Shown piece by piece: positions 26,122 through 45,331 of a DNA stretch of 64,000 nucleotides. The notes below the pieces were generated by a model. That model had not been told where the DNA came from. It made no database searches and saw only the letters and a program-made list of their open reading frames with translations. The position numbers were made by a program, and so were the translations under genes. Every line of letters begins with the position of its first letter. The stretch's first letter is position 1. Source of the DNA: Candidatus Methylacidiphilales bacterium (GTDB lineage Bacteria; Pseudomonadota; Gammaproteobacteria; JASGCS01); the NCBI GenBank assembly GCA_030054035.1, contig JASGCS010000002.1, positions 57,040 through 121,039 on the forward strand, written 5' to 3'.

Positions 26122-26229
26122 GGTGTAGGTAAAGGTACATATGGAGATTTACTAGATTGTTTTGAACGAGTCGTAATTGAGCTTCGCGGTGAAATAGATG
26201 GCTACTTTAAGGGTTATAATAAAAAATAA
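26122..26229 (+). pseudogene. Possible C-terminal gene remnant
   Basis: A 35-codon frame without its own start (after a stop at 26119) has a protein-like composition, including YGDLLDCFERVVIELRGEID, and ends TAA 12 nt before the SRPBCC gene. It may be the tail of a decayed gene in the 229-nt gap; family unknown. It could also be chance. Confidence 0.25.
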
Positions 26230-26241
26230 TGTGTAAGGACT

Positions 26242-26703
26242 ATGTCAAATAAAATATCATTTACGGTAAGCATACATGCTCCAGCAGCAAAAGTATATGA
26301 CCTAATGTTGGGCATTAGCAATAAATCAACATATGAACAATGGACAGCATTGTTCAATCCAACATCTACCTATGAAGGCAGTTGGAATAAAGGTAGCAAA
26401 ATGTTATTTATAGGAACTGATGAAACGGGAGAAAAAGGTGGCATGGTTTCTGAAATATCAGAGAATATTGCTAGCCAATTTGTTTCAATTCGTCATTATG
26501 GACTTGTAAAAGGTAATATTGAAATTATAGAAGGCCCAGAAGTAGCGCAATGGGGGAATGGGTTTGAAAACTATACTTTTAAAGAGAACAATGGTATTAC
26601 TGAAGTTACAGTTGACCTAGGACTTCCAGAAGAATATGCAAGTTATATGAATGAGACTTATCCAAAAGCTCTGAGCAAATTAAAGGTATTATGCGAAAAT
26701 TAA
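26242..26703 (+). CDS. SRPBCC (START-like) domain protein
   Basis: The 153-residue product is a single small domain of the SRPBCC fold, close in look to AHSA1/polyketide-cyclase-like proteins. It has FTVSIHAPAAKVYDLM at the N-terminus, a central GSKMLFIGTDETGEKGGMVSEI, and a C-terminal helix from about 128. Such proteins bind small hydrophobic ligands in a deep pocket; the ligand here is unknown. An SD-like AAGG sits 6 nt before the ATG. It is on the same strand as the next gene, 24 nt away. There is no signal peptide, so it is cytoplasmic. Confidence 0.75.
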   Translation: MSNKISFTVSIHAPAAKVYDLMLGISNKSTYEQWTALFNPTSTYEGSWNKGSKMLFIGTDETGEKGGMVSEISENIASQFVSIRHYGLVKGNIEIIEGPEVAQWGNGFENYTFKENNGITEVTVDLGLPEEYASYMNETYPKALSKLKVLCEN

Positions 26704-26727
26704 AAAATCTGTATACATCAATTTAAT

Positions 26728-27780: not shown

Positions 27781-28694
27781 ACTTTAGTGCATTAACGCAG
27801 GCAATTGGATCCTTTATGCAGGCTGTTGGATATTGGCGATTAGTCATCTCCTCTATAGTGATTGGCATCGTAATTTATATGACGCTTTTATGGGGCTTGT
27901 GGTACATGTTAGGGTTAGAATTTACTCAATTACTTACTGACCCAATTAATTTCCCTTTATTTGTATTTGCATTATTTTTTTCTATTGCCGTGGGGGTGCG
28001 CATACTGGCAAAATATATCTTCAATGACCCGCATCGGGTAATTCTCCTTAAAGGAGTAATCAATCGTACCTTGTTGTCTATAGTTGTATATGTAGCTCTA
28101 TTGTTCTCAATTATTGTCGTTGATTTTTATGACGCAAAAAGAGACCCTCTCACTAATCAAGTTCTCGCCATGAGTAAAAGGGTTTTTTACTCGGAATATC
28201 ACTATCGTCCGATAAGTTGGTATCGATTACTTGCTCAGTTGCAAACAGATACGATTGGAAGATATATAGATTTTGCGTACCCTTATGCTTGGATATTGCT
28301 AGAATCTAACTCACTAGATAGTAACAGGGAAGCGAGGAAAATTCTATTTGAATTGGCTAACCGAGGAAAAGCAAATGCCGAATATCTAGTTGGAAAAATG
28401 TATGAAGAAGGAAAAGGGGTATCACAAAATTATCTCTTAGCTCAAAATTGGTATCAAAAAAGTGCAGAACATGGTTTATCGGAGGGGATGTGTTTGTTGG
28501 GCAAGAGACTTGCGCTAGACGAATCAAATCGCGAAAATATAGTCCTTGCTCACAAATGGATTAATGTTGCAATAAGTAACAGATCTCCAAGTTGTGTCGC
28601 AAAAGACTTAAAGTTGCTTGAAGCTAAGCTTACCCCAGATGAACTAGCAAAAGCACAAAAAGAAGCGCTGGTTTTTAGATCAAAATTACAATGA
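27777..28694 (+). CDS. Membrane protein with C-terminal Sel1-like repeats
   Basis: The 305 residues contain three predicted membrane helices (about 20-45, 57-80 and 98-118), then a soluble domain with Sel1/TPR-like helices: ANAEYLVGKMYEEGKGV, NYLLAQNWYQKSAEHG and LSEGMCLLGKRLALD. Sel1 repeats usually serve protein-protein contacts. It starts inside the stop of the preceding gene (4-bp overlap) and the sigma factor follows after 13 nt, so it may form part of the signal path to that regulator. No catalytic motif is visible. Confidence 0.75.
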   Translation: MNFSALTQAIGSFMQAVGYWRLVISSIVIGIVIYMTLLWGLWYMLGLEFTQLLTDPINFPLFVFALFFSIAVGVRILAKYIFNDPHRVILLKGVINRTLLSIVVYVALLFSIIVVDFYDAKRDPLTNQVLAMSKRVFYSEYHYRPISWYRLLAQLQTDTIGRYIDFAYPYAWILLESNSLDSNREARKILFELANRGKANAEYLVGKMYEEGKGVSQNYLLAQNWYQKSAEHGLSEGMCLLGKRLALDESNRENIVLAHKWINVAISNRSPSCVAKDLKLLEAKLTPDELAKAQKEALVFRSKLQ

Positions 28695-28707
28695 GATCAA
28701 TTAGCCA

Positions 28708-29292
28708 ATGTCTCATAATTTAAAAATAAAAAAGGTAGAATCGTTGGTCATGCCACATTTGCCCTATTTACATCGCGTAGCCAGAAGATTTTGCAACAAT
28801 CGGAGTGATGCGGACGATCTTGTCCATGATTTGTTAGTAAAACTATTTGAACAACCTGATTTAATTGAAAGGGTAGAGTATCTAAAGACTTGGTTGGTGA
28901 GATGTTTATATAATTTGTATATTGACGGGGTTAGAAAGAACTCAAAAACAGTTGCCATGGAACCAGAGACAATTCAAGAGATAATTGAATCTGGGAGTTC
29001 AGCTCAAATAAAAACTTTAGAAGAAATCAAAGATTTAGAACAATTAAATGTGGTTCTAGGTAGACTGCTTAGTAACTTACCTGCCACCCAACGGGCTATA
29101 GTTGTGCTTCATGATATGGAAGGTTACCAACTGAGCGAACTTGCCACTCAGTTAGACATACCAATTGGTACGGTTAAATCCAGACTTCATAGAGGTAGAG
29201 AACGATTAAAAGCTCTATTAATTGAGGCAGGATATGGTAAATTAGAGCAAGAAAATGATAGCAACAATAATGCCAACGATGGGAACCTTTAA
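28708..29292 (+). CDS. ECF-family RNA polymerase sigma factor
   Basis: The 194 residues carry sigma region 2 (HRVARRFCNNRSDADDLVHDLLVKLFE, summarised by the core DADDLVHD, and LKTWLVRCLYNLYID, residues about 20-75) and region 4 (LPATQRAIVVLHDMEGYQLS and IPIGTVKSRLHRGRERLK, about 130-175), with no regions 1 or 3. That is the ECF layout. It would direct RNA polymerase to a small stress regulon. The next gene encodes a probable membrane anti-sigma factor, the standard partner arrangement. I could not identify its own target promoter in this window. Confidence 0.92.
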   Translation: MSHNLKIKKVESLVMPHLPYLHRVARRFCNNRSDADDLVHDLLVKLFEQPDLIERVEYLKTWLVRCLYNLYIDGVRKNSKTVAMEPETIQEIIESGSSAQIKTLEEIKDLEQLNVVLGRLLSNLPATQRAIVVLHDMEGYQLSELATQLDIPIGTVKSRLHRGRERLKALLIEAGYGKLEQENDSNNNANDGNL

Positions 29293-29346
29293 GCAAGTAC
29301 ATCCGTCTATATATGGAGAGCGTAAAAACTCTTAGTACCAGTACCG

Positions 29347-29964
29347 ATGACAAACGACTTAACTCGCTTATTACAGCAATATGAATGTGTTCTTACCTCC
29401 GAGGACCGAATGTTGACAATAAGTAGAAGGGCCAAGCTGTCTTGTAAGTTCTTATTACTTGGTAAGTGGATTAGAAAAGCTGCATCACCACTTTCGTTTG
29501 TCGGAGGTATCTTAGTTTCAATTAGTACAATACTTTATGCCCCGTCCGCTTCACAAATGATTGCCTCGATATTTAACCCAAACGAAAGCACAATTGCCAC
29601 AACTAATACTACAGCAAATCTAAGGCAAATTAATTGGAAAACCTCTTCTAAAGATGAGCCGCAGGTTCTTGAGATTCCAATTTCAACCAAACGCTTCATA
29701 CCCAATGCAAATGTAAAAGTTACTTTAGATGATAATATCTCAATTGAGAGATACCCAATGGTTAAGAAAATCACATTTCAAACAGATATCAGTCCTGAAC
29801 ATCCAGTGATCAATATTCCAGTGATCAAAACTGATGATCACGAAGCAAATATAATCGTAGAAATTGAAACACCTGATAAATCTCAAGTTATGCTCTATCA
29901 GATTGTTTCTGATCATTCTAGCGACACCTCACCAAAAGTATTTGATGCATCTTTTCAACAATAA
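29347..29964 (+). CDS. Probable membrane-bound anti-sigma factor
   Basis: The 205 residues have a cytoplasmic N-terminal part of about 55 residues, one membrane helix (about 57-78), and a periplasmic beta-rich domain containing ANVKVTLDDNISIERYP and later EHPVINIPVI. The combination of a short cytoplasmic sigma-binding segment, one helix and an extracytoplasmic sensor domain directly behind an ECF sigma gene is the usual anti-sigma layout. No zinc-binding HxxxCxxC motif is present, so it is not of the ZAS type. The next gene begins inside its last 20 bp. Confidence 0.75.
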   Translation: MTNDLTRLLQQYECVLTSEDRMLTISRRAKLSCKFLLLGKWIRKAASPLSFVGGILVSISTILYAPSASQMIASIFNPNESTIATTNTTANLRQINWKTSSKDEPQVLEIPISTKRFIPNANVKVTLDDNISIERYPMVKKITFQTDISPEHPVINIPVIKTDDHEANIIVEIETPDKSQVMLYQIVSDHSSDTSPKVFDASFQQ

Positions 29965-30802
29965 TATATCTACTGAAGCTCTAGTAAAAACATGTTGCAC
30001 TTCGCTCCTAACCCTAGCTACGCTGTTTTGCCTTATCCATAACACTATAGCTGAGCAAATCTATACTGCTGCTAAATTTGCAGAACTTTCAGATCTCTGC
30101 ATCACCAAATCAAATTCAGAAGATCAGAGACCGCAGATGACTCCGCCATTTCTTCACGACCATACTTTTTTAGAAGGGTTGAGAAAATTATTTATTTCGT
30201 ATGGAAGTTCTAGTTTTGTTTCTACTGCACAAAAAAATCAGGAAATCATCTCTTCACTGTATCAACAAGTGAATAGTGGGTCTATTGATGAGAATGAGAA
30301 AATAAAATTATGTAAATTATTTAGAAAATCCACGATTGAATTTCATCGAAAAACTCAATTTGAATTTGAACAAAATCCTCCCTTACGGGAAGCTGTGTCT
30401 GAATATCAAACATCATACTGTTTAGCAGTGCACGAACGAAGAATCGTAGTAAAGCATGATTTTATATTTAACCAACTACTATCAACTATTTCCGATAAAT
30501 CCATCATAAATAAATTAACTCTCCACAGAAACAATTTACTCTCTTACTTAAAACTAATTGATAATACCGATTCAAAGTTAGAGTCAAGAGAGCTTTTTAA
30601 TCAACTTACCTTTGAAAGAAACGCATTAGAAACGATTTTTGATCAACTAGTACTCAGCGATGCCGGGTTTGCTAATACCATACATTCTATTATTCAAAAA
30701 AATATCTCAAAAATCTCCCCGTTTGAGAGGGATAAAATTGAACGCGCCTCACATGCCTCGTATTCAACAAGATTTGACCGAAAATTATCACTAAATTGCT
30801 AG
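29945..30802 (+). CDS. Unrecognised exported helical protein of the sigma-factor locus
   Basis: I place the start at ATG 29945 (285 residues), inside the end of the anti-sigma gene, because it gives a good signal peptide: LVKTCCTSLLTLATLFCLI followed by AEQ. The longer frame from 29864 would bury this peptide and overlap by 100 bp. The mature part is mostly helical and charged, with scattered Cys (LCITK, KLCKLF, SYCLAV, the last residue). No known motif was found. Its position directly after sigma and anti-sigma suggests a periplasmic partner or output of that system, which is an inference from context only. Confidence 0.65.
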   Translation: MHLFNNNISTEALVKTCCTSLLTLATLFCLIHNTIAEQIYTAAKFAELSDLCITKSNSEDQRPQMTPPFLHDHTFLEGLRKLFISYGSSSFVSTAQKNQEIISSLYQQVNSGSIDENEKIKLCKLFRKSTIEFHRKTQFEFEQNPPLREAVSEYQTSYCLAVHERRIVVKHDFIFNQLLSTISDKSIINKLTLHRNNLLSYLKLIDNTDSKLESRELFNQLTFERNALETIFDQLVLSDAGFANTIHSIIQKNISKISPFERDKIERASHASYSTRFDRKLSLNC

Positions 30803-30927: not shown

Positions 30928-33438
30928 ATGTTACTCGTACTATCTACACTATTTTATATTTGGTTACTATTTTTAGCGATTGCTAAAAATAAAAAATCTT
31001 TCATTAGATCGATTATCTCAGTATTGGGGATAACATTATTATTTCTCTATATCCAACTTACTTCAAATATTGGTGATACCGATGGGGTAACTAAATTCTC
31101 TGTTACATTTGTTGATATTGGCATTTTACTAATTACCTTAGTAGTCTTGTTTTTCGTCTCAATTAAAGGGTTGCGACTATGGGTAACAAAGTTATTTTAT
31201 GACAAATTAAAAAACACCTTACCAAAAATTAGCGCCACCGAAATGACGGTCATTCAAGCTGGTAATACTTGGATTGAAAAAAATATCTTACAAGGGGAGA
31301 TTGATTGGTACGAAATTAATAAAATTAAGATTAATGATTTTACTGCTGAAGAGAAGAGTTTTTTAGCGACTGAAGTTAACCAATTATGTGAATTAGTAGT
31401 AAGCGAAGAAATTAAAAAAAATAAAAACTTAAGCCCTGAGATTTGGAAGTATATTCGGGAAAAAGGATTTTTAGGAATGGTATTGCCTAAAAAATATGGT
31501 GGCTTAGGCTTTAGTGCCCACGCGCACTCTGCGGTAGTTGCTAAACTTGCCACTTGTTCTCAGCCACTAGCAGTCACGGTAATGGTACCAAATTCACTTG
31601 GGCCTGGAGAATTATTAATACATTACGGAACTGAAGAACAGAGAAATTATTATTTGCCACGACTTGCAAAAGGTGTTGATATACCTTGTTTTGCACTAAC
31701 TTCACCTGTGGCAGGCTCTGATGCAGGCTCAATAGAAGACTCAGGTACTGTTTGTTTTGGTGAATACCAAGGTAACGCCAAGGTGCTAGGTCTTCGACTT
31801 AACTGGGAGAAGAGATATATCACCCTATGTCCAGTTGCTACATTATTAGGTTTAGCCTTTAAAGCTTATGACCCTGATAATTTATTACCTGTGAACCACC
31901 CACTAAAAGGAAAAGTCAGACTTGGTATCACGCTCGCAATCATTCCCACCAACTTACCAGGAATTCAAATCGGTAACAGACATGACCCAATGGGTGTAAG
32001 CTTTCAAAACGGTCCTACTAGAGGTAAAGATGTGTTTATCCCAATGGATCATATTGTTGGAGGCATAGATAGAATTGGTCATGGATGGCAGATGTTAACC
32101 GAATGTTTATCAATTGGAAGAGGAATTTCATTGCCTTCACTATCAGTAGCTGGTTGCAAACTCACCCTCGCCACTACTACCGCATACGCAACTGTGAGAG
32201 AGCAATTTAATTTACCTGTTGCTCGTTTTGAAGCAGTAGCGGATCGAATCTGCACTCTCGCTGAAAATACTTTTTCAACTGAGTCCGCACAACGACTTAC
32301 AAGTTCGTCAATTGATGAAGGCACAGTTCCTGCAGTAATTACCGCCATGATTAAATATAAAAACACAGAGTTGCTTAGAAACTCTGTAAATATTGCTTTT
32401 GATATCCATGGTGGTAGAGCGATAATGTGCGGTCCAAGAAACTACCTAGAGGAAATCTATCGGAGCATACCGATAGCTATTACGGTTGAAGGCGCAAATA
32501 TTCTCACACAGAGTTTGATAGTATTTGGTCAAGGGATAATGCGTTGCCACCCCTATCTTCTAGCCGAGGTAGAAGCACTAAGTACGCAAGATCAAAAACT
32601 AGCAATAGAAAAACTTGAAAAATCACTTTTCCCGCATCTGGGTTATGTTATGGGCAATCTCTCTTCTTCTCTAGCCTACGGATATTCGTTTGGTCATTTC
32701 GCACCTAGTATTGGAAATGGGGTACTCAAACGAATGACTCAAGCGGTTTCATCTACTAGTTATATTCTTTCTCTTACCAGCGATCTAGCTCTATTATTAT
32801 ATGGAGGCAATTTAAAGCGGATGGAGATCGCCTCTTCTAAATTTGCTACGGTGTGGACTAATCTTTATTACGCCTTGTCATGTATTAAACGATTTCAAGT
32901 AATAAATGAGCCAAAAAATCTTGAGCCCTTGTTACGGATAACTGTATTGGATTTGGTATATCAGGCAAGAGACAACTTACGCGATATATTATCCGACCTT
33001 CCGATTGTTCCAGGTAGAGTATTGGCGACATTACTACTACCCACGAATAGGCCATTTGGTCATATTTCTAACCGAGAACGAGTGGCGGTTAGTGAGCTTT
33101 TCTGTATGAATAACGGGCCACGCGTACTTTTTACGGACAACCTATTCCGATCACCTTCAATTGAGCATCCTTTAACAAGAATTGAAAGTGCTTTTCAAGC
33201 CGTTACTGATGAGAAATATAAATTAGTCGCTCGGCAACTTAAGTCATTACCGATTGATGCGCCAAAACGATTACCAAATGAATCATTATCAGATTGGCTA
33301 AATAAAATTGTGAGCGCGGGATATATTTCCGAAGAACAAAAAAGGCTCTATGTGCACACCAAAGCATTAGTTTTAGACGCGGTAATGGTTGATGAATTTA
33401 ATCCTAAAGATCACTCAGTAGTAGTGAGGAGAAATTGA
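30928..33438 (+). CDS. fadE: Acyl-CoA dehydrogenase, FadE type
   Basis: Catalyses the first oxidation of beta-oxidation (acyl-CoA to trans-2-enoyl-CoA) with FAD. The 836 residues match FadE of E. coli (about 815) in length and layout. Hydrophobic N-terminal segments (about 1-85) anchor it in the membrane. The dehydrogenase core has IREKGFLGMVLPKKYGGLGF, CFALTSPVAGSDAGSIED and the conserved GPRNYLEEIYRSIPIAITVEG, ending IVFGQG. The long C-terminal extension typical of FadE is present (DUF1974-like, about 540-836). It is the first gene of a four-gene run; the next ATG overlaps its stop by 1 bp. Confidence 0.95.
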   Translation: MLLVLSTLFYIWLLFLAIAKNKKSFIRSIISVLGITLLFLYIQLTSNIGDTDGVTKFSVTFVDIGILLITLVVLFFVSIKGLRLWVTKLFYDKLKNTLPKISATEMTVIQAGNTWIEKNILQGEIDWYEINKIKINDFTAEEKSFLATEVNQLCELVVSEEIKKNKNLSPEIWKYIREKGFLGMVLPKKYGGLGFSAHAHSAVVAKLATCSQPLAVTVMVPNSLGPGELLIHYGTEEQRNYYLPRLAKGVDIPCFALTSPVAGSDAGSIEDSGTVCFGEYQGNAKVLGLRLNWEKRYITLCPVATLLGLAFKAYDPDNLLPVNHPLKGKVRLGITLAIIPTNLPGIQIGNRHDPMGVSFQNGPTRGKDVFIPMDHIVGGIDRIGHGWQMLTECLSIGRGISLPSLSVAGCKLTLATTTAYATVREQFNLPVARFEAVADRICTLAENTFSTESAQRLTSSSIDEGTVPAVITAMIKYKNTELLRNSVNIAFDIHGGRAIMCGPRNYLEEIYRSIPIAITVEGANILTQSLIVFGQGIMRCHPYLLAEVEALSTQDQKLAIEKLEKSLFPHLGYVMGNLSSSLAYGYSFGHFAPSIGNGVLKRMTQAVSSTSYILSLTSDLALLLYGGNLKRMEIASSKFATVWTNLYYALSCIKRFQVINEPKNLEPLLRITVLDLVYQARDNLRDILSDLPIVPGRVLATLLLPTNRPFGHISNRERVAVSELFCMNNGPRVLFTDNLFRSPSIEHPLTRIESAFQAVTDEKYKLVARQLKSLPIDAPKRLPNESLSDWLNKIVSAGYISEEQKRLYVHTKALVLDAVMVDEFNPKDHSVVVRRN

Positions 33439-35936
33439 TGAATAAACAACCCAGCCCTCAAGAAATATATCCAGCGTATTACAGAAATAGTTTCAAAAAA
33501 ATTGGTGTACTTGGCGACGGTGTCATGGGAAGTCAGATTGCTGTCCACCTCACTAACTGTCGTATACCAACTATTTTGTATTGCACCATTACAATTGATG
33601 AAAAAGCTAAACCAGAATACATACGCAATCTCAAAAAGAGAATACTTGCTCTCAAACCCCCAGCGCTTGCATTACCAGCTTGGATAGATGAGATAGAAAT
33701 TGCATTTCTGGATGACGCTCAAGGTAAAAAATCACTTGGTGAGTGCGACTTACTAATTGAAGCAATTATCGAACAAATTGATGAAAAGAAAAAATTATAC
33801 CAGAGTATCGCTTCATCCGTCAATAAAAATGCCATTATTGCGTCAAACACTTCAGGCTTATCAATACAATCGCTTGCACAAGTACTGCCTAAGGAGTTTG
33901 CATCAAGATTCTGCGGGATACATTTTTTTAATCCAGTCAGATACTTAGCATTATGCGAGCTTATCCCACTCGCAACTGTACCCCCACAACAAATACAAAC
34001 GTTGCGTGGATTTCTTTCATCGGTACTTGGTAAACATGTAGTAATCAGTAAAGACTCTCCAGCGTTTATAGGTAATCGGTTAGGTTTATTTTGCGTACTC
34101 GCAACCTTTTCGCTCGCTGAAAAACACAAACTCCCGCCCGATCTCGTCGATGAATTAACCGGGAGCTTTATTAAACATGCCAGTAGTGCAACGTTCCGCA
34201 CCGCTGATGTGGTTGGATTGGATGTCTTAGCTTTTGTCGCAGAAAATATGGAGAAAAATCTTACCAGTGACCCATGGCATGCTTATTTTTCACTTCCAGC
34301 TTGGATTAAAAAATTATTGTTGGAAAAGAAACTAGGGGCAAAAACTGGCCAAGGTATTTATCACAAGCGCGGTAAAGATATCTATGTATTTGATCCAAGT
34401 TTAAACGACTACCGATTGACTGCAAAAAAACTAGACCCAGAACTTAAAAAACTTGTTCGCTCTTCAGAACAAGGTATCGTAAGCGCTTTAGTTGAACTTA
34501 AAAAAATAAACAATGCTCAATCTGCCTTTTTATGGGATTTACATAGAGAATTATTTTTATACGCAAGTTACCATTTGGACAGTTTTGCCCAATCTGTCAG
34601 AGAAGCGGATATTGCTATTACATCAGGATTTGGCTGGGAAATAGGGATCTTTGAACTTTGGCAAGCAGCTGGGATAGATAAAATCAATCAGTTAATTCTT
34701 AATGATTGCTCTAACAAAAATCAATTAAGTACAGTTTCACTCCCTACATGGGTACAATCAGGACAACCGTTTTACACTACTGAAGGGGCTCTAAGCCCAT
34801 CCCAATCTAAAAGAATTTCACTTTTAGAATCAGGAATTGGTGCAAGAACAATTAGAAGCGCTCGAGTAGTTGCTGAACAAGGGAATGCTGATAAAGTTTT
34901 TTTTGAAAATGATGGCATTATCGCGCATGAAATTAATTCATCCTTGATTGCGATTGCGCATAAAACTAAATTAAATGTTTTAAGCTACGATGTCATTAAA
35001 GGATACCATACGGTATTAGACCAACTTGAATCAAGAGATGCCGCAATAGTTATTCACCAGTTAAAACCACATTTTGGTGCTGGAGCAAATCTTGCTGAAA
35101 TGATTGTCGCCGCTAAAATAGGCAAGATACGCAGTTCTGGTATGTTGAGTTCTTTGAAAAGTAAAGCAGCAGTAATGCTGGACGATCGTCTTCCTGATAT
35201 TAGCAATATGCCTCCAGTCAGTGAAGTTATTCCTTTACTTCAAAATCTTTGTATGCGTCTAAAACATGGCCGCAACCCTGTCGTTGCTTGTGTAGAAGGC
35301 TTGACATTAGGTGGTTGCTGCGAAATTATTCTCCATACTACTAGAAATGTGGCCGCATTAAATAGTTACATTGGTCTGGTTGAGATAGGTGTTGGGTTGC
35401 TCCCTGCCGGAGGTGGAACTAAAGAAATGGCTTTCCGTGCCTCATTAAAGACTAGTGGAGCGCCAACTATGTTCTTTCACCAACAACATGTAGAGCAAAT
35501 TCTAATGGGCAAGGTTAGTGAAAATGCCTATCAGGCTAGAAATTTTAACTACCTAAGGCAAGAAGATATAATCATCGCCAATCCCGATGAATTATTTCAT
35601 ACCGGATGTAAAGTCGCGTTATCACTACTAGAAACTGACTACCGACCAGAGCCTAGAAATACTGCTTTTGAAGTACTTGGAATGGATGGCTATGCTACTA
35701 TCCTAAGCCAATTAGAAAACATGCACTATGGGAAATTTATTAGCGACTATGATCGACATTGCGCAACTACCATAGCTCATGTTTATTGTGGAGGTGGAGT
35801 TGACACCCATGAAAAAGTAACTTCTGACTGGATGTTACTAAAAGAGCGCGATGCTTTTTTAGAGTTACTGGAACAAGAAAAAACTCAAGAACGAATTGAG
35901 TACATGTTAAAAAATAACAAGCCTCTGAGGAACTAA
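33438..35936 (+). CDS. 3-hydroxyacyl-CoA dehydrogenase/enoyl-CoA hydratase (FadN/FadB-like, dehydrogenase first)
   Basis: Performs the hydration and second oxidation of beta-oxidation. About 832 residues. The NAD-binding GVLGDGVMGSQIA is near residue 23, catalytic-site segments CGIHFFNPV and GFIGNRLG-like FIGNRLG follow, and a hydratase domain at the C-terminus has VVACVEGLTLGGCCEIIL and GLVEIGVGLLPAGGG. The dehydrogenase-then-hydratase order is that of FadN-type proteins, opposite to E. coli FadB. The NAD motif has Asp where Ala or Gly is usual (GDGVMG). I start at ATG 33438, 1 bp into the fadE stop and 6 nt after a strong GAGGAG; a TTG one codon earlier is possible. fadA follows after 2 nt. 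Confidence 0.92.
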   Translation: MNKQPSPQEIYPAYYRNSFKKIGVLGDGVMGSQIAVHLTNCRIPTILYCTITIDEKAKPEYIRNLKKRILALKPPALALPAWIDEIEIAFLDDAQGKKSLGECDLLIEAIIEQIDEKKKLYQSIASSVNKNAIIASNTSGLSIQSLAQVLPKEFASRFCGIHFFNPVRYLALCELIPLATVPPQQIQTLRGFLSSVLGKHVVISKDSPAFIGNRLGLFCVLATFSLAEKHKLPPDLVDELTGSFIKHASSATFRTADVVGLDVLAFVAENMEKNLTSDPWHAYFSLPAWIKKLLLEKKLGAKTGQGIYHKRGKDIYVFDPSLNDYRLTAKKLDPELKKLVRSSEQGIVSALVELKKINNAQSAFLWDLHRELFLYASYHLDSFAQSVREADIAITSGFGWEIGIFELWQAAGIDKINQLILNDCSNKNQLSTVSLPTWVQSGQPFYTTEGALSPSQSKRISLLESGIGARTIRSARVVAEQGNADKVFFENDGIIAHEINSSLIAIAHKTKLNVLSYDVIKGYHTVLDQLESRDAAIVIHQLKPHFGAGANLAEMIVAAKIGKIRSSGMLSSLKSKAAVMLDDRLPDISNMPPVSEVIPLLQNLCMRLKHGRNPVVACVEGLTLGGCCEIILHTTRNVAALNSYIGLVEIGVGLLPAGGGTKEMAFRASLKTSGAPTMFFHQQHVEQILMGKVSENAYQARNFNYLRQEDIIIANPDELFHTGCKVALSLLETDYRPEPRNTAFEVLGMDGYATILSQLENMHYGKFISDYDRHCATTIAHVYCGGGVDTHEKVTSDWMLLKERDAFLELLEQEKTQERIEYMLKNNKPLRN

Positions 35937-35938
35937 TT

Positions 35939-37120
35939 ATGAAAAAAGTATTTATTATAGACACGATTAGAACGGCAGTTGGTAAACGCAATGGTGTATT
36001 CTCACGCACCAGACCAGATGATTTGCTCGTGCATTGCCTTCGAGCATTGGTGCAAAGAAATAATTCAGTTGATTGGGAAAGAGTAGGTGATCATATTGCT
36101 GGTTGCGCCATGCCTGAAGCAGAACAAGGACTCAATGTAGCTCGCAGTGCAGTATTACTAGCTGGGTTACCACAAGCAATATCGGGAATGACCGTAAATA
36201 GATTTTGCGCTTCTGGATTACAAGCTGTTTCTCTTGCCGCAGATAAAATTATGTTGGGTAATGAAGACCTCATGATTGCCTCAGGTGTTGAAAGTATGAG
36301 CCAGGTTCCAATGGGAGGTAACAAACCTTCATTTAATCAAAAAGTTTTTACAAACCAAGATGCTGTAGGTATAGCCTGGGGTATGGGTTCAACAGCAGAA
36401 GAAGTAAGTGTGAGATTTTCAGTAACCCGACAAGAGCAAGATGCTTTTGCATTTGAAAGCCATCGTCGAGCTATCAATGCTCAAGAAAAAGGGTATTTCA
36501 CTGATGAGATTATTCCATTTACTGTTGAGAGACATAGTGTTGTAGACAATAAACTTCAAACCAATACCCAACAAGTACTAAAAGACGAAGGCCCACGCGC
36601 AGATTCCACATTAGAGGCGTTAGCAAAATTAAAACCCGTGTTTGCTGGACAAGGTAGTGTCACAGCAGGCAATTCCTCACAAATGTCAGATGGTGCCGGT
36701 GCAGTGCTATTGGCCAGTGAAGAAGCAGTCAAAGCATACCAACTCACGCCAAAAGCAATTTTCCATGGCTACACGGTTGCAGGGCTTGATCCTAAGATTA
36801 TGGGCGTTGGTCCTATTAAAGCAATTCCAAAATTACTAGACCAAGTAAAAATATCTTTAGATGCTATTGATTGGATTGAACTAAATGAAGCATTTGCTGC
36901 TCAATCACTTGCAGTGATTAAGGAACTAAAATTAGACCAAGCTAAAGTAAATCCTCAAGGTGGTGCTATTGCATTAGGACATCCACTTGGTGCCACCGGT
37001 GCAATTCGAACCGCAACCATTGTTTCAGCGCTTCGTCGTAATAAATTACGATTTGGTATAGTCTCAATGTGTATTGGAACAGGCATGGGAGCCGCAGGAC
37101 TATTTGAGTCTTGCTCATGA
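35939..37120 (+). CDS. fadA: Acetyl-CoA acyltransferase (3-ketoacyl-CoA thiolase)
   Basis: Cleaves 3-ketoacyl-CoA with CoA to acetyl-CoA and a shortened acyl-CoA. The 393 residues have the thiolase signatures: acyl-accepting Cys in VNRFCASGLQAV (about residue 88), NEAFAAQ (about 316-322), GHPLGATGA (about 347-355), and the catalytic Cys in CIGTGMGAAG near the C-terminus. Length is typical. It lies 2 nt after the FadN-like gene with a GAGG ribosome binding site, and the fusion gene follows after 3 nt, so the thiolase is in the middle of the fad operon. Confidence 0.96.
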   Translation: MKKVFIIDTIRTAVGKRNGVFSRTRPDDLLVHCLRALVQRNNSVDWERVGDHIAGCAMPEAEQGLNVARSAVLLAGLPQAISGMTVNRFCASGLQAVSLAADKIMLGNEDLMIASGVESMSQVPMGGNKPSFNQKVFTNQDAVGIAWGMGSTAEEVSVRFSVTRQEQDAFAFESHRRAINAQEKGYFTDEIIPFTVERHSVVDNKLQTNTQQVLKDEGPRADSTLEALAKLKPVFAGQGSVTAGNSSQMSDGAGAVLLASEEAVKAYQLTPKAIFHGYTVAGLDPKIMGVGPIKAIPKLLDQVKISLDAIDWIELNEAFAAQSLAVIKELKLDQAKVNPQGGAIALGHPLGATGAIRTATIVSALRRNKLRFGIVSMCIGTGMGAAGLFESCS

Positions 37121-37123
37121 GTA

Positions 37124-39913
37124 GTGAAGCTTAAGGTTGTACTCGCCATAGATGGTGGGGGAATTCGAGGGATCATATCCTGTAGGATTCTACTTAGACT
37201 CATTGATGAAATTAGAAAAGTTACCAGAAAACAAGATGCACATTTAGCAGATTTTGTAGATTATTTTGCTGGAACATCAACTGGCAGTATTTTAGTTTCA
37301 GCAATGATCACTCCATCAGTTTACTCACCCTCAAAACCTGCATACACAATTGGAGATATTCAATCCTTTTATATAGAAAACGCTAAAAAGATTTTTTCCA
37401 AATCATTGTCACATAGTATTACTAGTCTAGGTGGCATTACAAAATCAAAGTATGAAAATAAAGGGTTACATGATGTGCTATATTCATATTTTGGCGGATT
37501 GCAACTATCTCAACTGATGAAACCATGCACGCTTACTAGTTTTGATTTATTTACCAATAAGAATTTATACTTTCGTAGCCAAGACGCCCGCAATAACTCT
37601 TCTCATGATTTTTATGTAAGAGACGCTTGCTTAGCTTCGTCAAGTGCTCCGATGTATTTTCCTCCTGCTAATATTCGTAATGTAAATGGTGAAAGATTCC
37701 TTTGTTGTGATGGGGTGGTATTTGCAAATAACCCAAGCCTATGTGCCTACGCAGACTATAGAAAAATTGAACCTAACGCTTTTGCTAATAATATGATTTT
37801 TATTTCCGTGGGAAATGGAGTGCATGACTCAACGTATGACTTAACCAGCTTTGAACGAACCGGTGGAGCTGGATCATGGTTTAAGGCTTTTTCCGATGTT
37901 TTTATTGGGAGTGTGAGTGAGAGTATAGATTTTCAACTAAGAATGATTTACCGAGAATGCCCTAACCTTTATTTTCGTTGGGTGCCCTACCTCGGAGAAG
38001 GAATAAGTAGAAGCATAGACACAACCTCTATTGATGATTTAAGTATATTTATCGATGTTGCCGATGCGTTTGTGGATAGTAACGCTGAACAAATTAAAAA
38101 AATTGCTAACTTGTTATATAATAACTCTATAAAAGATGATATTTCGAAGGAAACCATCTCTACTACTGAAATCAGTACAACCAACATGATCAATAACTCA
38201 ATCCCTCCTTTACCACCCACTTGGACTTCTCGTTATACAGATAATGCTCGGTATCCGATTAGCTATGATAATTACGATAATGTTGTTGAGATGATTAATC
38301 AAACCACAAGAATACATCGAGATAAAATTGCTTTTGAAAGTTTCAATCAAACAATATCATTTGAACAAGTTGGGTTTTATTCAGACCACATTGCCGGCTG
38401 GCTTCAAAAACACGCAATGTTAAAACCTAACAGCCGAGTTGCTGTATTTCTACCAAATATACTTGCTTTCCCTCCATTGCTTTTTGGTATCATCAAAGCC
38501 GGATGTATACCAGTATGCTGCAACCCAACTTATACGTCAAGAGAATTGATTCATGTGCTAAAGAACAGTGATGTATCATTGCTCTTTACTTTTGATAGAA
38601 ATGCAAAAGTTGTAGAAGAAGCTATTAAGGATAATCCAGTGCCAGTGGTCTGCGTTGAATTAGTTGATTTATTCCCACTACTTGCAAAATTAATTGTCAG
38701 GATAGCTCTTCGTCTAAAACTTGGAAAAGCAGACCCTTGGACTATCCCAACACTTACACTAAATGATATCACTAAATTCAGTGATTGTAGCATACCAAGA
38801 CCAGTTACAATTAACAATAATAACACCTTGTTACACCAATATACAGGTGGGACAACAGGCATAATAAAAGCCGCAGAACTTACCCATAAAAATATTATTG
38901 CAAATATGCTACAAATCACATCAATGATGCCACGTGAATTTATTAGACCTGATATTCAACAAATAGCATGCACACCTCTACCGTTGTATCATATCTTTTC
39001 ATTGACAGTGAACTTATTTACATGCTTTTCACTAGGTACACACAATGTATTAATCACAAACCCGAGAGATTTAACTACTACCATCAAAACGATGAGTAAA
39101 TATCGTTATAATTTTTTAACTGGAGTAAGTCCACTTTTTTATAGTATTGCCAATCACTCATTAGTAAAGAACTTAGATTTCAGTGATCTGCGTATTTGTA
39201 TTGCCGGAGGTATGTCAGTACCTGAATCAGTAGCTAAGCTTTGGAAAGAAAAAACTAATAACACCATAATTCAAGGTTACGGTTTAACAGAGGCTTCACC
39301 AGTTGTAAGTTGCTGCCCACATGACATTAAATCTTTCGATGGTAGCATTGGTATCCCACTACCTGATACAGAAATTGCTATAGTTAATGAAGAAGGGGTA
39401 ACAGTAAAAACAGGACAATCAGGCGAATTGCTGGTGCGAGGTCCACAGGTAATGAAAGGCTACCTAGAACAAAAAGAAGAGACCAAATTAGTAATCACTG
39501 AAGAAGGTTGGTTAAAAACTGGTGATTTAGCATACATAGATGATCGTGGATTCTTATTTATTGTAGATCGTCTGAAAAATCTAATTAATGTTTCAGGGTT
39601 TAAAGTATTCCCAAATGAAATTGAAAATGTATTATTAACCCACCCGAGCCTACTAGAAGCGGCTTGTATAGGAATAGCATCTGATAAAACTGGACAAAAA
39701 GTTGTGGCAGTAGTTGTAGCCAAAAACCCAAGCATAACTGATAAAGAAAAACAAATTATTATTGACGAATTAAAAACGATTTGTAACAATTCGTTAACAC
39801 ATTATAAAACTCCACGAGAATACTATTTTATACCTGCACTACCAAAATCAACAGTGGGTAAAGCGCTGCATAGAATTTTAGTTGAACAGTACGATAATTT
39901 AAAAAATAATTAA
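37124..39913 (+). CDS. Fusion of a patatin-like phospholipase and a FadD-type acyl-CoA ligase
   Basis: One uninterrupted 929-codon frame joins two enzymes. Residues 1 to about 310 are a patatin domain with oxyanion loop DGGGIRG (10-16), nucleophile Ser52 in GTSTG and the catalytic Asp in CCDGVVFANNP (about 196). A 60-residue linker rich in Ser, Thr and Pro follows. From about 375 to the end lies a full-length acyl-CoA synthetase of FadD size: YTGGTTGIIKAAELTHKN (P-loop, about 572), GYGLTEASP (about 719), GDLAYIDD (about 800), DRLKNLINVSGFKVFPNEIE, and the catalytic Lys in PKSTVGKAL. The start is a GTG 3 nt after fadA. Inference: it frees fatty acids from lipids and activates them to acyl-CoA for the three preceding genes. 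It meets the TPR gene tail-to-tail with a 4-bp overlap. Confidence 0.9.
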   Translation: MKLKVVLAIDGGGIRGIISCRILLRLIDEIRKVTRKQDAHLADFVDYFAGTSTGSILVSAMITPSVYSPSKPAYTIGDIQSFYIENAKKIFSKSLSHSITSLGGITKSKYENKGLHDVLYSYFGGLQLSQLMKPCTLTSFDLFTNKNLYFRSQDARNNSSHDFYVRDACLASSSAPMYFPPANIRNVNGERFLCCDGVVFANNPSLCAYADYRKIEPNAFANNMIFISVGNGVHDSTYDLTSFERTGGAGSWFKAFSDVFIGSVSESIDFQLRMIYRECPNLYFRWVPYLGEGISRSIDTTSIDDLSIFIDVADAFVDSNAEQIKKIANLLYNNSIKDDISKETISTTEISTTNMINNSIPPLPPTWTSRYTDNARYPISYDNYDNVVEMINQTTRIHRDKIAFESFNQTISFEQVGFYSDHIAGWLQKHAMLKPNSRVAVFLPNILAFPPLLFGIIKAGCIPVCCNPTYTSRELIHVLKNSDVSLLFTFDRNAKVVEEAIKDNPVPVVCVELVDLFPLLAKLIVRIALRLKLGKADPWTIPTLTLNDITKFSDCSIPRPVTINNNNTLLHQYTGGTTGIIKAAELTHKNIIANMLQITSMMPREFIRPDIQQIACTPLPLYHIFSLTVNLFTCFSLGTHNVLITNPRDLTTTIKTMSKYRYNFLTGVSPLFYSIANHSLVKNLDFSDLRICIAGGMSVPESVAKLWKEKTNNTIIQGYGLTEASPVVSCCPHDIKSFDGSIGIPLPDTEIAIVNEEGVTVKTGQSGELLVRGPQVMKGYLEQKEETKLVITEEGWLKTGDLAYIDDRGFLFIVDRLKNLINVSGFKVFPNEIENVLLTHPSLLEAACIGIASDKTGQKVVAVVVAKNPSITDKEKQIIIDELKTICNNSLTHYKTPREYYFIPALPKSTVGKALHRILVEQYDNLKNN

Positions 39914-41304
39914 TTAGTGATAACCGACTTAAGCTCTTGCAAAGCATCAAGTCCGCCAGCTACACTTTCTTCATTCTTGATCCTTTCAAGAACTGCCTCA
40001 CGATCAATAGTCGCAGAAACATACTGAATCCAATCGCGCGCTATTTTATCATTTGTTTTACTATCTTTAATCTTCATAAATTGAGATAAAGATTTTTTAT
40101 ATTGTTCTAAATTAAAGTATGCAGTGCCAAGAAGAATGATTGCTTTTTCATTATCTTTACTTTTAAAATTATTTAATGAAATGGCTTTTTCACAAGCTGA
40201 AACTACATCTTGCCATTTTTCTAAACCACTATAAGAATAAGCAAGACGAAGATGTAAGTCTGAAGAATTAGATTTATTTGCAGCTTTTAATAATGGTTGT
40301 ATTGATTTTTGAATATTATGTGATTGAAAATATGCCTGAGAAAGTAAAAGTAAATTCTGTTCGGATTCTTCCATTATTTTATTTTCGATTAGTGTTGATA
40401 ATATGCGGCTAGCTTTAAAACTTATCCCGAGATTTAACATAAGACCAGTTAGATTTCTATACTCACCTTCATTATTAAGATTTTTGGTATCATATAACAA
40501 TTCCATAAGTGCGAGTTGTTTGCTATCTTTACCATCAAGACCAAATGCACTAGCTAGATTTAATAAATAACTTGGGCGGGGATAAAACTTAACTAATATT
40601 TTCAATATTTCAATAGCATTTTTCTCATCTTTATTTTCTATATACAAAAATCTAAGTAAAACTAACCATTGTTCTTTGGGCTTTCTATTATTATTTATAT
40701 ATTGATCTACTGCTTCTTTTATATGGACAAAAGCCTTTTGGTTATTTTGTAATTGATAATATGCGATGGCAATAAGTGCCAACATGTCGGCATCTCTACC
40801 GGTGTTTTCAATCACCTTATTAGCACTTGCAATGACCTTCTGATATTGCTCTTTTACCATATACAATTGAGTTACTGTTCGAAGTGAAGATAAATATAAA
40901 CCTTCAGGCGTATCAGGACTATTTATAATTTTTTGGTAGGTAGCAATTGCACTATCAACATCGTCTTTTAGATAATACAAGAAGGCTTTTATATTCTGAA
41001 CTTGCGTTAATTCGTAAGGCGTAAGTTTTGCTTTTTCCAAATCATCAGCTAGTGAAAAAGCCTTATTAATTTTTTCAATTGATATTTTAGCATGAGGATT
41101 TTTGTCATCAGATTGTATTTGTGTCTGAATTTCAGATAGCTTTTTATAAACTCTTTCACTTATAGCTGGAGTAGCTTTTGTTCTCTGTGTTTTTGCTTTT
41201 ACAGTATTATCAACAGGTTGTGTTTCTTCTGGTATAGAATCACTTGCATTTACAAGCACTCCATAGCTCACAAGAAAAAATAATGGAAAGTAACGAGTCA
41301 TCAT
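39910..41304 (-). CDS. Periplasmic TPR-repeat protein of the TonB2-type operon
   Basis: The 464 residues carry a signal peptide (FPLFFLVSYGVLVNASDS) and many tetratricopeptide helices from about 90 to 430, for example YQKVIASANKVIENTG and LHLRLAYSYSGLEKWQDVV. TPR proteins of this kind occur at the end of TtpC/TonB2 operons, where they are thought to help the outer-membrane part of the energy transduction system. Here the gene overlaps the tonB ORF by 4 bp at its start, so translation is coupled, and it ends 4 bp into the patatin-FadD gene from the other side. Confidence 0.85.
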   Translation of the reverse strand: MMTRYFPLFFLVSYGVLVNASDSIPEETQPVDNTVKAKTQRTKATPAISERVYKKLSEIQTQIQSDDKNPHAKISIEKINKAFSLADDLEKAKLTPYELTQVQNIKAFLYYLKDDVDSAIATYQKIINSPDTPEGLYLSSLRTVTQLYMVKEQYQKVIASANKVIENTGRDADMLALIAIAYYQLQNNQKAFVHIKEAVDQYINNNRKPKEQWLVLLRFLYIENKDEKNAIEILKILVKFYPRPSYLLNLASAFGLDGKDSKQLALMELLYDTKNLNNEGEYRNLTGLMLNLGISFKASRILSTLIENKIMEESEQNLLLLSQAYFQSHNIQKSIQPLLKAANKSNSSDLHLRLAYSYSGLEKWQDVVSACEKAISLNNFKSKDNEKAIILLGTAYFNLEQYKKSLSQFMKIKDSKTNDKIARDWIQYVSATIDREAVLERIKNEESVAGGLDALQELKSVITN

Positions 41305-42149
41305 TTTTCAATACTGTATGTAAATCTATTTCGAACTCCAACAACTTCAACTGCTACACCATCTACAACTCTTGGTTTATACTTGAACTTAAGTGAAGCA
41401 TTGACTGAGGCAGATTCAAAAAGTGAACTACTGCATTCCCCAGGCACCACAGAAGAATCTTTAACTGTACCAATCTCAGAAACTGTATATTCCACAACGC
41501 AATAACCCTCAACTCCACGCTGTAATGCACCTTGTGGATAAATTGGAGCAACTTTTACGATAGGAATATACTCACCCTCACCAGCCCCAATACCCGAACC
41601 AAGTTTTACATCTATTGAACCTACATTTCCTAGGTTAACAGCAATGGATGCTTCTGAGCTCTTATTAGATTGTTTATCAAAGTCTTGATCTATAGATGGA
41701 GGTGGTGGGGTATTTTGTTGAGGTTTTAAAAGTTGTAAATCAGAAAGTAATTCAGCGTTTGAACGAGCGCTAACAAAATCAGATGAAATTCTAATCCGTT
41801 TGGATTCATCAAGTTTTAACTCACGAGAAGTGATAATTGTATTTAATAACCAAGCCTGAGTAAGTACAAATAAAAATGCTAAGGTAATTGCTAGTTTAAA
41901 TTTATTTTTTGAAGTAAGAAATGGGGTTACATATTTAACCCAACTTGATACAATAAGTCTAGCTAGAGCAGAATTAATAATTTTTACTTGAATACGATTT
42001 ACTAAAACCATAATTCTCGATGCATAATTATTAATTAAGTTAATAATAAAGTCAATCACACTCATTACCTTTGACTTCTCAACTACTAACCAAAACATGG
42101 TCATAATTTTACATGCGAAACTTTTTGCTAAGGTGTGGTCCATAACCAT
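41301..42149 (-). CDS. TonB-family energy transducer with an extended N-terminus
   Basis: The 282 residues end in a clear TonB C-terminal domain (about 200-282): PIYPQGALQRGVEGYCVVEY, then YKPRVVDGVAVEVVGV. The membrane helix is at about 84-106 (LAITLAFLFVLTQAWLLNTI), unlike ordinary TonB2 proteins whose helix is close to the start. The extra 80-odd residues are basic and helical. The ATG at 42149 is 6 nt after the exbD stop, which supports the long form. The Pro-rich segment normal to TonB is short (PPPPS). It would couple the proton-motive force from ExbBD/TtpC to an outer-membrane receptor not encoded here. Confidence 0.88.
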   Translation of the reverse strand: MVMDHTLAKSFACKIMTMFWLVVEKSKVMSVIDFIINLINNYASRIMVLVNRIQVKIINSALARLIVSSWVKYVTPFLTSKNKFKLAITLAFLFVLTQAWLLNTIITSRELKLDESKRIRISSDFVSARSNAELLSDLQLLKPQQNTPPPPSIDQDFDKQSNKSSEASIAVNLGNVGSIDVKLGSGIGAGEGEYIPIVKVAPIYPQGALQRGVEGYCVVEYTVSEIGTVKDSSVVPGECSSSLFESASVNASLKFKYKPRVVDGVAVEVVGVRNRFTYSIEK

Positions 42150-42155
42150 TGTTAA

Positions 42156-42563
42156 TTAGGGTAGAACCGTAGAAAGTGAAATATTATAAACACCTGCTTG
42201 TCTAGCAGCGTCCATTACCTTAACTAGTTTATCGTTTTTACTATCTTTATCAGCTTGTATGATTAAAGCACCTTGGGGATTCTCTGCATGGAGTTGCTCT
42301 ATAATTGGACGAAGACCAGAATCAGGCACAATTCGATTCTGTATCCATACTTCATTCCTGCCACTGATCGCCACAAGAATATTTGCATTTTCCCTAGTTT
42401 CAGATGTTGTTGCGCTTGACTTGTTTACTTCAATTCCAGTTTCTTTTATAAAATTAGCAGCTAATATAAAAAACAATAGTAAATTAAAAACCATGTCTAA
42501 CATCGGTGCCAAATCTAATGGTTCAATATATGATTCCTTAAGATAACTTCTTCTTCTAGACAT
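42156..42563 (-). CDS. exbD: ExbD/TolR-family proton channel subunit
   Basis: The 135 residues have one membrane helix near the N-terminus with the proton-path Asp in LAPMLDMVFNLLLFFILA (Asp about residue 23), followed by a periplasmic domain with GALIIQADKDSKNDKLVKVMDAA. Together with ExbB it forms the proton-driven motor energising TonB. The order exbB-exbD-tonB, with 2-6 nt gaps, is conserved. Size is typical. Confidence 0.93.
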   Translation of the reverse strand: MSRRRSYLKESYIEPLDLAPMLDMVFNLLLFFILAANFIKETGIEVNKSSATTSETRENANILVAISGRNEVWIQNRIVPDSGLRPIIEQLHAENPQGALIIQADKDSKNDKLVKVMDAARQAGVYNISLSTVLP

Positions 42564-42565
42564 TA

Positions 42566-43132
42566 TTAGCGTCCTCCTTTTCCAGTTTTACTAACTCGTT
42601 TAATTTCTAAACTATCTTCTAACAATTCCACTTCAACATCTTGCCGATGTCTGAGCCAACTACTTAATAAAAGACCCAATACTGCAACACTCATTCCAGT
42701 AAGCGTTGGTATGATTGCTTGATAAACACCAGAAGCCATTTGTCTTACATCGGTTGATCCAGCGTATGATAAGGTCTGAAAGATTCTGATCATACCAGTC
42801 ACTGTACCAATTAAACCCGCCAATGGTGCAATCATCACACAAGCATAGACAAAATCCATTTTTTCTCTTAAATTCATTTTAATTTGTGAAATAAGCTGAT
42901 CGCGGATTTTATGCGCATACCAAGATGAATGATCGGTGCGATTTTTCCATTCTTGTGCTACACGATTAATTTCGTTTGGTAATATGACTTTAATGTAATA
43001 AAATCTCTCCACTACCAAATACCATAAAAAACAGGCCATAATAAGTATCATCAAGACTATTGGGCCACCAAGTGTCACATAGCCAACAATAGACCTTAAG
43101 GCTGGTAACCAATAATAGACAAACTCTAACAT
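42566..43132 (-). CDS. exbB: ExbB-family proton channel subunit
   Basis: The 188 residues are of MotA/TolQ/ExbB type: three membrane helices at about 15-38, 92-118 and 135-160, with APLAGLIGTVTGMIRIFQTL and GVYQAIIPTLTGMSVAVLGL as conserved parts. It is the shorter of the two ExbB-like proteins here and directly precedes exbD, so it is probably the pore-forming partner of that ExbD. The stop is 2 nt from exbD. Confidence 0.92.
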   Translation of the reverse strand: MLEFVYYWLPALRSIVGYVTLGGPIVLMILIMACFLWYLVVERFYYIKVILPNEINRVAQEWKNRTDHSSWYAHKIRDQLISQIKMNLREKMDFVYACVMIAPLAGLIGTVTGMIRIFQTLSYAGSTDVRQMASGVYQAIIPTLTGMSVAVLGLLLSSWLRHRQDVEVELLEDSLEIKRVSKTGKGGR

Positions 43133-43153
43133 ATCAAAATCAGTATCCTTTTC

Positions 43154-44560
43154 TTATGATTTTTCAGCTTGTCTGGCGATAATTCCTGCTGTTTGTTCTT
43201 CTAATATTTGTGATATCATTCCAACACGATTGGTAAGATAGGCACTCATAAACATGCCTGGAATTGCGGTAGCAAGTCCTTGAATTGTATTTACCAACGC
43301 TTGAGAAATACCAGTTGCCATTAGTTTAGGATCCCCACTACCATAAAGTGTTATGGCTTGGAAGGTTAAAATCATACCCGCCACCGTACCTAACAATCCA
43401 GCTAGAGGTGCGACAACAGTTGAGAGTTTAATATAACCCATACCTTTTTGTAGTCCAGGTATTTCTTTAACTAAAATCTCATCAAGTTTCAGTTCTAAAC
43501 TTTCCGGATCTAATGATTTATTTTCTTTATAGACCATAAGCATTCTGCCTAAAGGATTATCATTTCTTGGTGTATCAACAGATTTTAGCTGTGATTGAAT
43601 GGATCGATAAATATCGTTAAGAACACGAGCTCGAACAATAGTTATTATGATTGCAATCACTAGTAAAGACATTATGAAATACCCAACAGTGCCACCCATT
43701 TTAATTTGATCGATAAATGAAGGAGTTTCCATCAGCGCTGCAATTAGCTGCCCTCGTGTTGGATCAATAGAAATTGGTTGAATTTCCTCATTTGAGTCTT
43801 CAGCAACATCTTCAGCGTAGTCAAGTTTAGCTTCGCCAGGTTGTCGGTTTAACATTGCTATTTTGCCATTTTCGCTAATATAACGCAAATACTCTCCATC
43901 GCCAACCAGATTAAATAGCCCAACTCGCATTACTTCGAGCTCTTCTTCACTTCCATTAACTTGAACAACTTTAGATTTAAAGGTTACAATCTTTCCTGAT
44001 TCAGTCATTTCACGATGTAACTCAAACCATAGTTTTTCAACGTCCTCAATTGAAGGTAATCTATTACCCTTAGAAATTCTGCTGTTGAATTCACGCAAAA
44101 ATACAGTTCGTTCGCCAAATTGTACTTGTGTTATTGAATTTTGAAACTGCCCTTGTGCGTCACCCGATACTTGAACAAATACCCCAAATAATTCTTTGAG
44201 AGAACCAAGTCTTTGATTTAGATTTTTTAATAAATCGGTAAGTTCGGCTTTATTTTTATTAAAGACACCTTCTAGCTGCTTAGATTTTGATTCAAGTTGA
44301 TTTCTTTGCTGTTCAGCTTGTCTGAGAAGATTGGCTTGATTTTGCTTATCTTTCGAAAAAGAATCAACTAACTTATCAATTTCATTCCGGTCACTTACAA
44401 TACCTGATGCGACTTGTTTTAACAACTCATCAGCACTAAGAAGTTGGGCTGGAGCTGTTTTATTTTCCAAACCTTTTTCTTCTGCGAAACAGGTAGAAAC
44501 AACGGCGTTGAATAAAACTAATGTGAAAACCGAATTAAATAAAATGGTAAATTTTTTCAT
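43154..44560 (-). CDS. TtpC-like protein (periplasmic coiled coil plus ExbB domain)
   Basis: The 468 residues have a signal peptide (about 1-26), a Gln/Lys-rich coiled-coil region (about 50-120), a periplasmic domain to about 280, and a C-terminal MotA/TolQ/ExbB channel domain with three membrane helices, APLAGLLGTVAGMILTFQAI and GISQALVNTIQGLATAIPG. This layout is that of TtpC in the TonB2 systems of Vibrio and relatives, where it is required for TonB2 function. It follows the DUF3450 gene by 3 nt and precedes exbB by 21 nt. Confidence 0.9.
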   Translation of the reverse strand: MKKFTILFNSVFTLVLFNAVVSTCFAEEKGLENKTAPAQLLSADELLKQVASGIVSDRNEIDKLVDSFSKDKQNQANLLRQAEQQRNQLESKSKQLEGVFNKNKAELTDLLKNLNQRLGSLKELFGVFVQVSGDAQGQFQNSITQVQFGERTVFLREFNSRISKGNRLPSIEDVEKLWFELHREMTESGKIVTFKSKVVQVNGSEEELEVMRVGLFNLVGDGEYLRYISENGKIAMLNRQPGEAKLDYAEDVAEDSNEEIQPISIDPTRGQLIAALMETPSFIDQIKMGGTVGYFIMSLLVIAIIITIVRARVLNDIYRSIQSQLKSVDTPRNDNPLGRMLMVYKENKSLDPESLELKLDEILVKEIPGLQKGMGYIKLSTVVAPLAGLLGTVAGMILTFQAITLYGSGDPKLMATGISQALVNTIQGLATAIPGMFMSAYLTNRVGMISQILEEQTAGIIARQAEKS

Positions 44561-44563
44561 GAC

Positions 44564-45331
44564 TTAGCCTCCTACTTTGTCATTAATTTTCTGAACTGGA
44601 ACAACGATAAACTCTGGTGATTTTTGCTTCCTTGCTACTTTCATAGCGTCATGAATAGCATTTTTATAAGTAAAAGCAGATACCTCTTCCCACTTACCAG
44701 TTTTTTTGTTCCATGAGGCAGTCAAACCCTTGTCATCAGTTTGAAACGCTAGGGAAATTCTCCCTACCCGAAGAACATTTACTTCAAGTTCCTTACCGTC
44801 ATATTGAACTTTATCACGATACGTTGAAACCGTTCTTCCGTATTCAATTTCACTCATATACACTTCAGCAACTTTTCTAAATTTTTCATTAATCTCAACA
44901 TCACCACGATCCATAAGTGTTCGTAATTCTTTAATTCTATCAATTCTAAAAGCATGATCAAACGGCATATCAATAGGCACAAACGACTCTAGACTTGAAA
45001 TCATTTTAAACATGGTTGGAACAATTTGTCGTTCAATTAATCCGCTCTTCTCAAGTGAATCTCTAATTTCTTTTTTCTCAACTGATTGTTGTATGATTTG
45101 TTTTTCTAACTGATTGTTGTAGACTCGCAGGTCTTCATTAATCTTAAGAACGGATTTATATTGTGAAAGTAACTTATCAGTATCTTTTGCAATGGCATCA
45201 ATTTTTTGTTGGCCACTAATTGCCTGATTGTTTCTCTCAACCCCTTTATCCACCACTGTATCAATAGTATTCTCCGCACCAACGATCATACTAAATCCAA
45301 ACAGCACTACTGTTATAATTTTTATTTTCAT
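44564..45331 (-). CDS. DUF3450 family periplasmic protein, first gene of the TonB2-type operon
   Basis: The 255 residues have a signal peptide ending near VGA and a coiled-coil half (about 28-95), then a domain with MISSLESFVPIDMPFDHAFR and YRDKVQYDGKELEVNVLRVGRISLAFQTDD (key part ELEVNVLRVGRISLAF). DUF3450 proteins consistently occur upstream of ttpC-exbB-exbD-tonB. The biochemical role is not known; a scaffold or sensor of the complex is plausible. dsbA ends 28 nt downstream? No: dsbA lies upstream on the same strand, ending 28 nt before this start, so the two groups may share transcripts. Confidence 0.85.
   Translation of the reverse strand: MKIKIITVVLFGFSMIVGAENTIDTVVDKGVERNNQAISGQQKIDAIAKDTDKLLSQYKSVLKINEDLRVYNNQLEKQIIQQSVEKKEIRDSLEKSGLIERQIVPTMFKMISSLESFVPIDMPFDHAFRIDRIKELRTLMDRGDVEINEKFRKVAEVYMSEIEYGRTVSTYRDKVQYDGKELEVNVLRVGRISLAFQTDDKGLTASWNKKTGKWEEVSAFTYKNAIHDAMKVARKQKSPEFIVVPVQKINDKVGG

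Follow-up and report, generated by a model that had tools for sequence, protein, structure and literature searches.

The stretch of DNA analysed here (the window, 64,000 nucleotides) belongs to a draft genome of 1.72 Mb in 16 contigs (96% complete), and carries a tight fad operon in the order fadE, fadB, fadA and, as its last gene, a fusion of patatin and fadD (Table 1). The intergenic gaps within this operon are, in order, -4, +2 and +3 nt, the first being a 4-nt overlap between fadE and the fadB-like gene, whose product has its dehydrogenase part first. The terminal frame runs for 929 codons from a GTG initiator with no internal stop, and Pfam, a motif check and an AlphaFold2 model gave the same order of parts, with a disordered linker between the patatin and the complete FadD that follows it. 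This confirms, by Pfam matches as well as motifs, what a preliminary description of the DNA had claimed, namely that a patatin domain and the motifs of an acyl-CoA synthetase share one reading frame.

Table 1. Genes, domains and catalytic motifs of the fad operon (positions are those of the window; residues are those of the fused protein)
Feature	Position	Strand	Basis or remark
fadE, acyl-CoA dehydrogenase, first operon gene	30928..33438	+	PF09317, PF02771; PRK13026 above cut-off
fadB-like 3-hydroxyacyl-CoA dehydrogenase/enoyl-CoA hydratase	33435..35936	+	PF02737, PF00725, PF00378
fadA, 3-ketoacyl-CoA thiolase	35939..37120	+	PF00108, PF02803; PRK09052 above cut-off
Fused patatin-FadD gene	37124-39913	+	GTG start, 3 nt past fadA stop
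Patatin domain, residues 1-334	37124..38125	+	PF01734
Oxyanion-hole DGGGIRG, residues 10-16	37151-37171	+	Motif check
Ser52 nucleophile	37277-37279	+	GTSTG, residues 50-54
Asp196	37709-37711	+	DG at 196-197; reads DGV, not DGG
Linker, residues 335-365, Ser/Thr/Asn-rich	38126..38218	+	AlphaFold2 model, motif script
FadD domain, residues 366-929	38219..39910	+	PF00501, PF13193
P-loop YTGGTTGIIK, residues 573-582	38840-38869	+	Motif check
FadD signature DRLKNLINVSGFKVFPNEIE, residues 815-834	39566-39625	+	Motif check
Catalytic Lys913	39860-39862	+	PKSTVGK, residues 907-913

According to the same description, the fusion would be undone by a frameshift or by a misassembly that had merged two genes. 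We found no evidence in support of such an error and regard it as extremely improbable: the frame is continuous with catalytic motifs intact on both sides, codon-position G+C is similar across the patatin half, the FadD half and the adjoining fad genes, as expected of one native gene, and an independent genome (G387, below) has the same two domains fused, which rules out a one-off assembly error.

The operon is flanked by genes of other kinds. A cluster encoding TPR, TonB_C, ExbD and ExbB proteins and a long ExbB extended at its N-terminus (39910-45331, minus strand) is convergent with it, with a 4-nt overlap between the stop codons. Directly upstream (24537-30802) lie genes for a pentapeptide-repeat protein, a Sel1-repeat protein and an ECF sigma factor, together with several ORFs with no Pfam match.

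Domains of the fused protein

A Pfam search placed the patatin match (PF01734) at residues 7-204 (3.8e-22; 79.9 bits against a gathering score of 27.7), and this half of the protein has the motifs of patatin membership, i.e., the GxSxG serine, the DG aspartate and the glycine-rich oxyanion hole. Ser52 and Asp196 were invariant among 11 relatives. The closest solved structure to the patatin profile was plant Patatin-17 (1oxw; E-value of 3.4e-27 by alignment and 2.7e-58 by profile, with GTSTG and DG matched), CapV-type structures being next-best (1.9e-27 or weaker). The patatin fold is assigned from sequence, as the matches listed by the fold search were ligase-type structures throughout, and we describe this half as a putative lipid acyl hydrolase with a Ser-Asp dyad. 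By inspection it has no evident signal peptide and therefore probably acts at the cytoplasmic face of the membrane. A search of the source genome (96% complete draft) identified no second patatin.

The ligase half matched AMP-binding (PF00501) at residues 396-781 (7.1e-78) and AMP-binding_C (PF13193) at 832-913 (2.3e-16), both well in excess of their gathering scores, and aligned with E. coli FadD from the N-terminus of that half to its end, with 39% identity and all signature motifs. The motifs of FadD membership, comprising the ATP/AMP P-loop, the FadD signature and the C-terminal catalytic lysine, are all present, as is YGLTEASP at residues 719-726. The best NCBIfam FadD model, PRK08974, had a score (2.6e-148, 494.6 bits) below the equivalog cut-off of 884, and for this reason the ligase is best called FadD-like. 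A preference for long-chain substrates is suggested by the operon and by the best-scoring models. This half of the fusion is the only FadD-like ligase of the source genome; the three other strong AMP-binding matches are to frames of 648-656 codons with ~30% identity or less, which, judging from their length, are probably acetyl/propionyl-CoA synthetases.

The AlphaFold2 model (mean pLDDT 81, pTM 0.61) consists of two confident, separate domains, whose relative placement is unreliable, the input alignment having contained no paired fusions. Residues 232-300 of the patatin half were poorly modelled, and residues 337-357 were disordered (pLDDT < 50). A disordered linker of ~20 residues suggests that the predicted arrangement keeps the domains in proximity, rather than forming a tunnel between them.

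Fused, adjoining and missing partners in related genomes

A second patatin-FadD fusion was identified in G387, as one frame of 871 residues at the same place in the same operon. This genome is a member of family f109, of the same class as the source genome, in which we searched 83 genomes of 0.7-2.8 Mb, several of them closed at 1.0-1.2 Mb. Judging from genome size, this family may resemble the SUP05/Thioglobaceae group. In seven other members patatin and fadD are separate genes that adjoin downstream of fadA; the contig of one of these (G409) ends within patatin, and the fadD copy of two others (G405 and G447) is cut or incomplete. The patatin slot differs again in G441, where fadA is followed directly by fadD with a 4-nt overlap (L201:1703-8000), and in G393, where patatin is interrupted by stops (L074:4839-7530), so some members of the family seem to have kept the beta-oxidation operon but lost its patatin. 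A further member has patatin and fadD on opposite strands in a tail-to-tail arrangement (L071:7057-9805), and in other members patatin is located elsewhere. The recurrence of the fusion, along with the side-by-side genes in relatives, indicates that the pairing is real.

Beyond the source genome and G387, 1,445 genome searches (covering more than 1,000 different genomes of one phylum) revealed no patatin-FadD fusion, and no third example emerged from searches directed at patatin, which covered 369 genomes in the class, 399 in the phylum, 385 in a second class and 78 in a third. A search of genome contigs with the full-length fusion protein returned separate FadDs only, and a tblastn search of plasmids returned no record that covered 80% of the protein or both of its domains. 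No other member of the source genome's own family or genus was found in our searches, and patatin relatives in six other genomes had no fad genes within the flanks examined. Several long frames were considered as candidate fusions and rejected: a frame of 1448 residues in G188 (L049:4488-8834, minus strand) has a C-terminal patatin and a weak DnaJ match with no FadD, and frames of 698-2169 residues in another class (L191-L198) have a C-terminal patatin, again with no FadD.

The two known fusions could descend from one event, with the gene later split in some f109 members, or could have arisen separately. A single origin is possible, as both fusions have the domain order and operon context in common and the source copy groups, weakly, with f109 in the best FadD (86/73) and patatin (70/84) trees. 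Against this, an exclusive pairing of the source and G387 FadDs was rejected (AU p 8.7e-5), the equivalent patatin pairing was borderline (p 0.052), and the FadD of G387 clusters with the split f109 relatives (100/100), though long branches weaken both sets of trees. The junctions are also unlike: that of the source protein keeps the FadD N-terminal segment and adds a Ser/Thr/Asn-rich linker of ~30 residues, whereas that of G387 has neither linker nor FadD N-terminal segment, like the split relatives. Two fusion events are the more likely history.

Proposed function and comparison with known systems

We propose, with a probability of about two in three, that the fused protein is a two-domain membrane-lipid salvage enzyme that feeds beta-oxidation. 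The patatin domain, at the cytoplasmic face of the membrane, would cleave fatty acids from glycerolipids of the cell itself; the flexibly tethered FadD domain would adenylate these and yield acyl-CoA, which FadE, FadB and FadA of the same operon would then oxidise to acetyl-CoA. Fusion may bring equal dosage and closeness of hydrolysis and activation. Both enzymatic activities, the use of internal phospholipid as substrate and the benefit of proximity are predictions, for which the intact catalytic residues of both domains and the presence of a single patatin and a single FadD in each genome speak. Degradation of fatty acids from a cell's own membrane lipids is known to require FadD (PMC7232532), and in E. 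coli FadD activates, with no need of FadL, the fatty acids that the phospholipase PldA sets free (PMC5874903). FadL was not detected in nine genomes (the source and eight of the f109 family; the E. coli control was positive), making exogenous long-chain fatty acids a less likely source, although other uptake routes may operate and the source assembly is a draft of 96% completeness. Storage lipid may also serve as a substrate; a WS/DGAT search gave no match, its controls being silent too. It also counts against salvage that patatin is dispensable in f109, being absent from G441 and broken in G393, and that the flexible linker of the AlphaFold2 model offers no structural case for direct transfer.

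The latter point bears on the preliminary description, which had the fusion passing released fatty acid straight to activation and so avoiding toxic free acid. Coupling of hydrolysis to activation is well supported by the position at the operon end, the seven unfused neighbouring pairs and the second fusion, and avoidance of toxic free acid is plausible, but the disordered linker does not favour 'straight' passing. Direct channelling, in which the freed fatty acid would travel between the active sites of patatin and FadD and never escape the protein, is unlikely: consecutive pathway steps have been fused in two families, as it would lead one to expect, yet seven relatives manage with separate proteins, and the model, in which domain orientation is unreliable, predicts no rigid interface across its ~20 disordered residues. 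We would not expect the full combination of a twice-evolved bifunctional lipase-ligase derived from a five-gene operon, direct hand-over, and FadL-less burning of membrane lipid by small-genome bacteria with no release of free acid to hold as a whole.

It is also improbable that the acyl-CoA derived from phospholipid is reused for lipid synthesis or serves as a signal; the PldA-FadD route of E. coli, which is independent of beta-oxidation (PMC5874903), provides a precedent for such remodelling or signalling, but wherever flanking sequence sufficed the pair, fused or adjacent, was found within a beta-oxidation operon. Very unlikely, finally, is a CapV-type defence or toxin-like phospholipase fused by chance: PADLOC models of CBASS phospholipase effectors do match the patatin domain (2.8e-44) and CapV-type structures are its next-best solved relatives, but Patatin-17 is closer (2.7e-58 against 1.9e-27 or weaker), the operon slot is conserved in a second family, and the neighbours are fadE-fadB-fadA and the TonB/ExbBD cluster, with no CD-NTase cyclase found by Pfam or PADLOC among those checked (fad, TPR/TonB/ExbBD, repeat proteins and ECF sigma factor).

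Membrane-lipid salvage, the reading we prefer, gives the fusion a wider interest. It is known that fatty acids set free from a bacterium's own membranes can be burned, and the E. coli phospholipase that feeds FadD is a separate outer-membrane protein; a hydrolase joined to the activator within a beta-oxidation operon names the partner enzyme, so that a single gene suffices to test endogenous lipid salvage. The series of absent, broken, neighbouring and fused patatins in relatives is a clear example of fusion arising from operon neighbours, and the fused enzyme might be used as it stands, as a tool for converting phospholipids to acyl-CoA.

The preliminary description knew of no described example of this architecture, and we likewise found none in the open-access literature. 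A functional counterpart is PldA-FadD of E. coli, in which FadD also activates phospholipid-derived fatty acids without FadL; PldA, however, is an outer-membrane phospholipase separate from FadD, whereas the fusion has a patatin as its hydrolase, covalently linked to the ligase (PMC5874903). E. coli FadD (NCBIfam model PRK08974) aligns with the ligase half over its full length, but only the fusion has an N-terminal patatin, and it scores 495 against 884 bits. Patatin-17 has the Ser-Asp dyad, DGGGIRG, GTSTG and, judged from sequence, the fold in common with the fusion, which differs in being bacterial and ligase-joined and in lacking an evident signal peptide. CapV, a CBASS phospholipase activated by cGAMP (8zr9), is similar as a member of the patatin family, but the fusion lies in a metabolic operon with no cyclase neighbour. 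Aas (PRK08633), whose model matches the ligase part, likewise joins an AMP-forming acyl activator, in one protein, to a second enzyme of phospholipid acyl chains, in its case an acyltransferase domain with a re-acylating role. Pfam identified no N-terminal acyltransferase domain in our protein, where that position is occupied by the patatin, so that in place of an acyltransferase the fusion has a putative hydrolase, and it lies with beta-oxidation genes. What is new is the union of two ordinary domains in a beta-oxidation operon, in two lineages.
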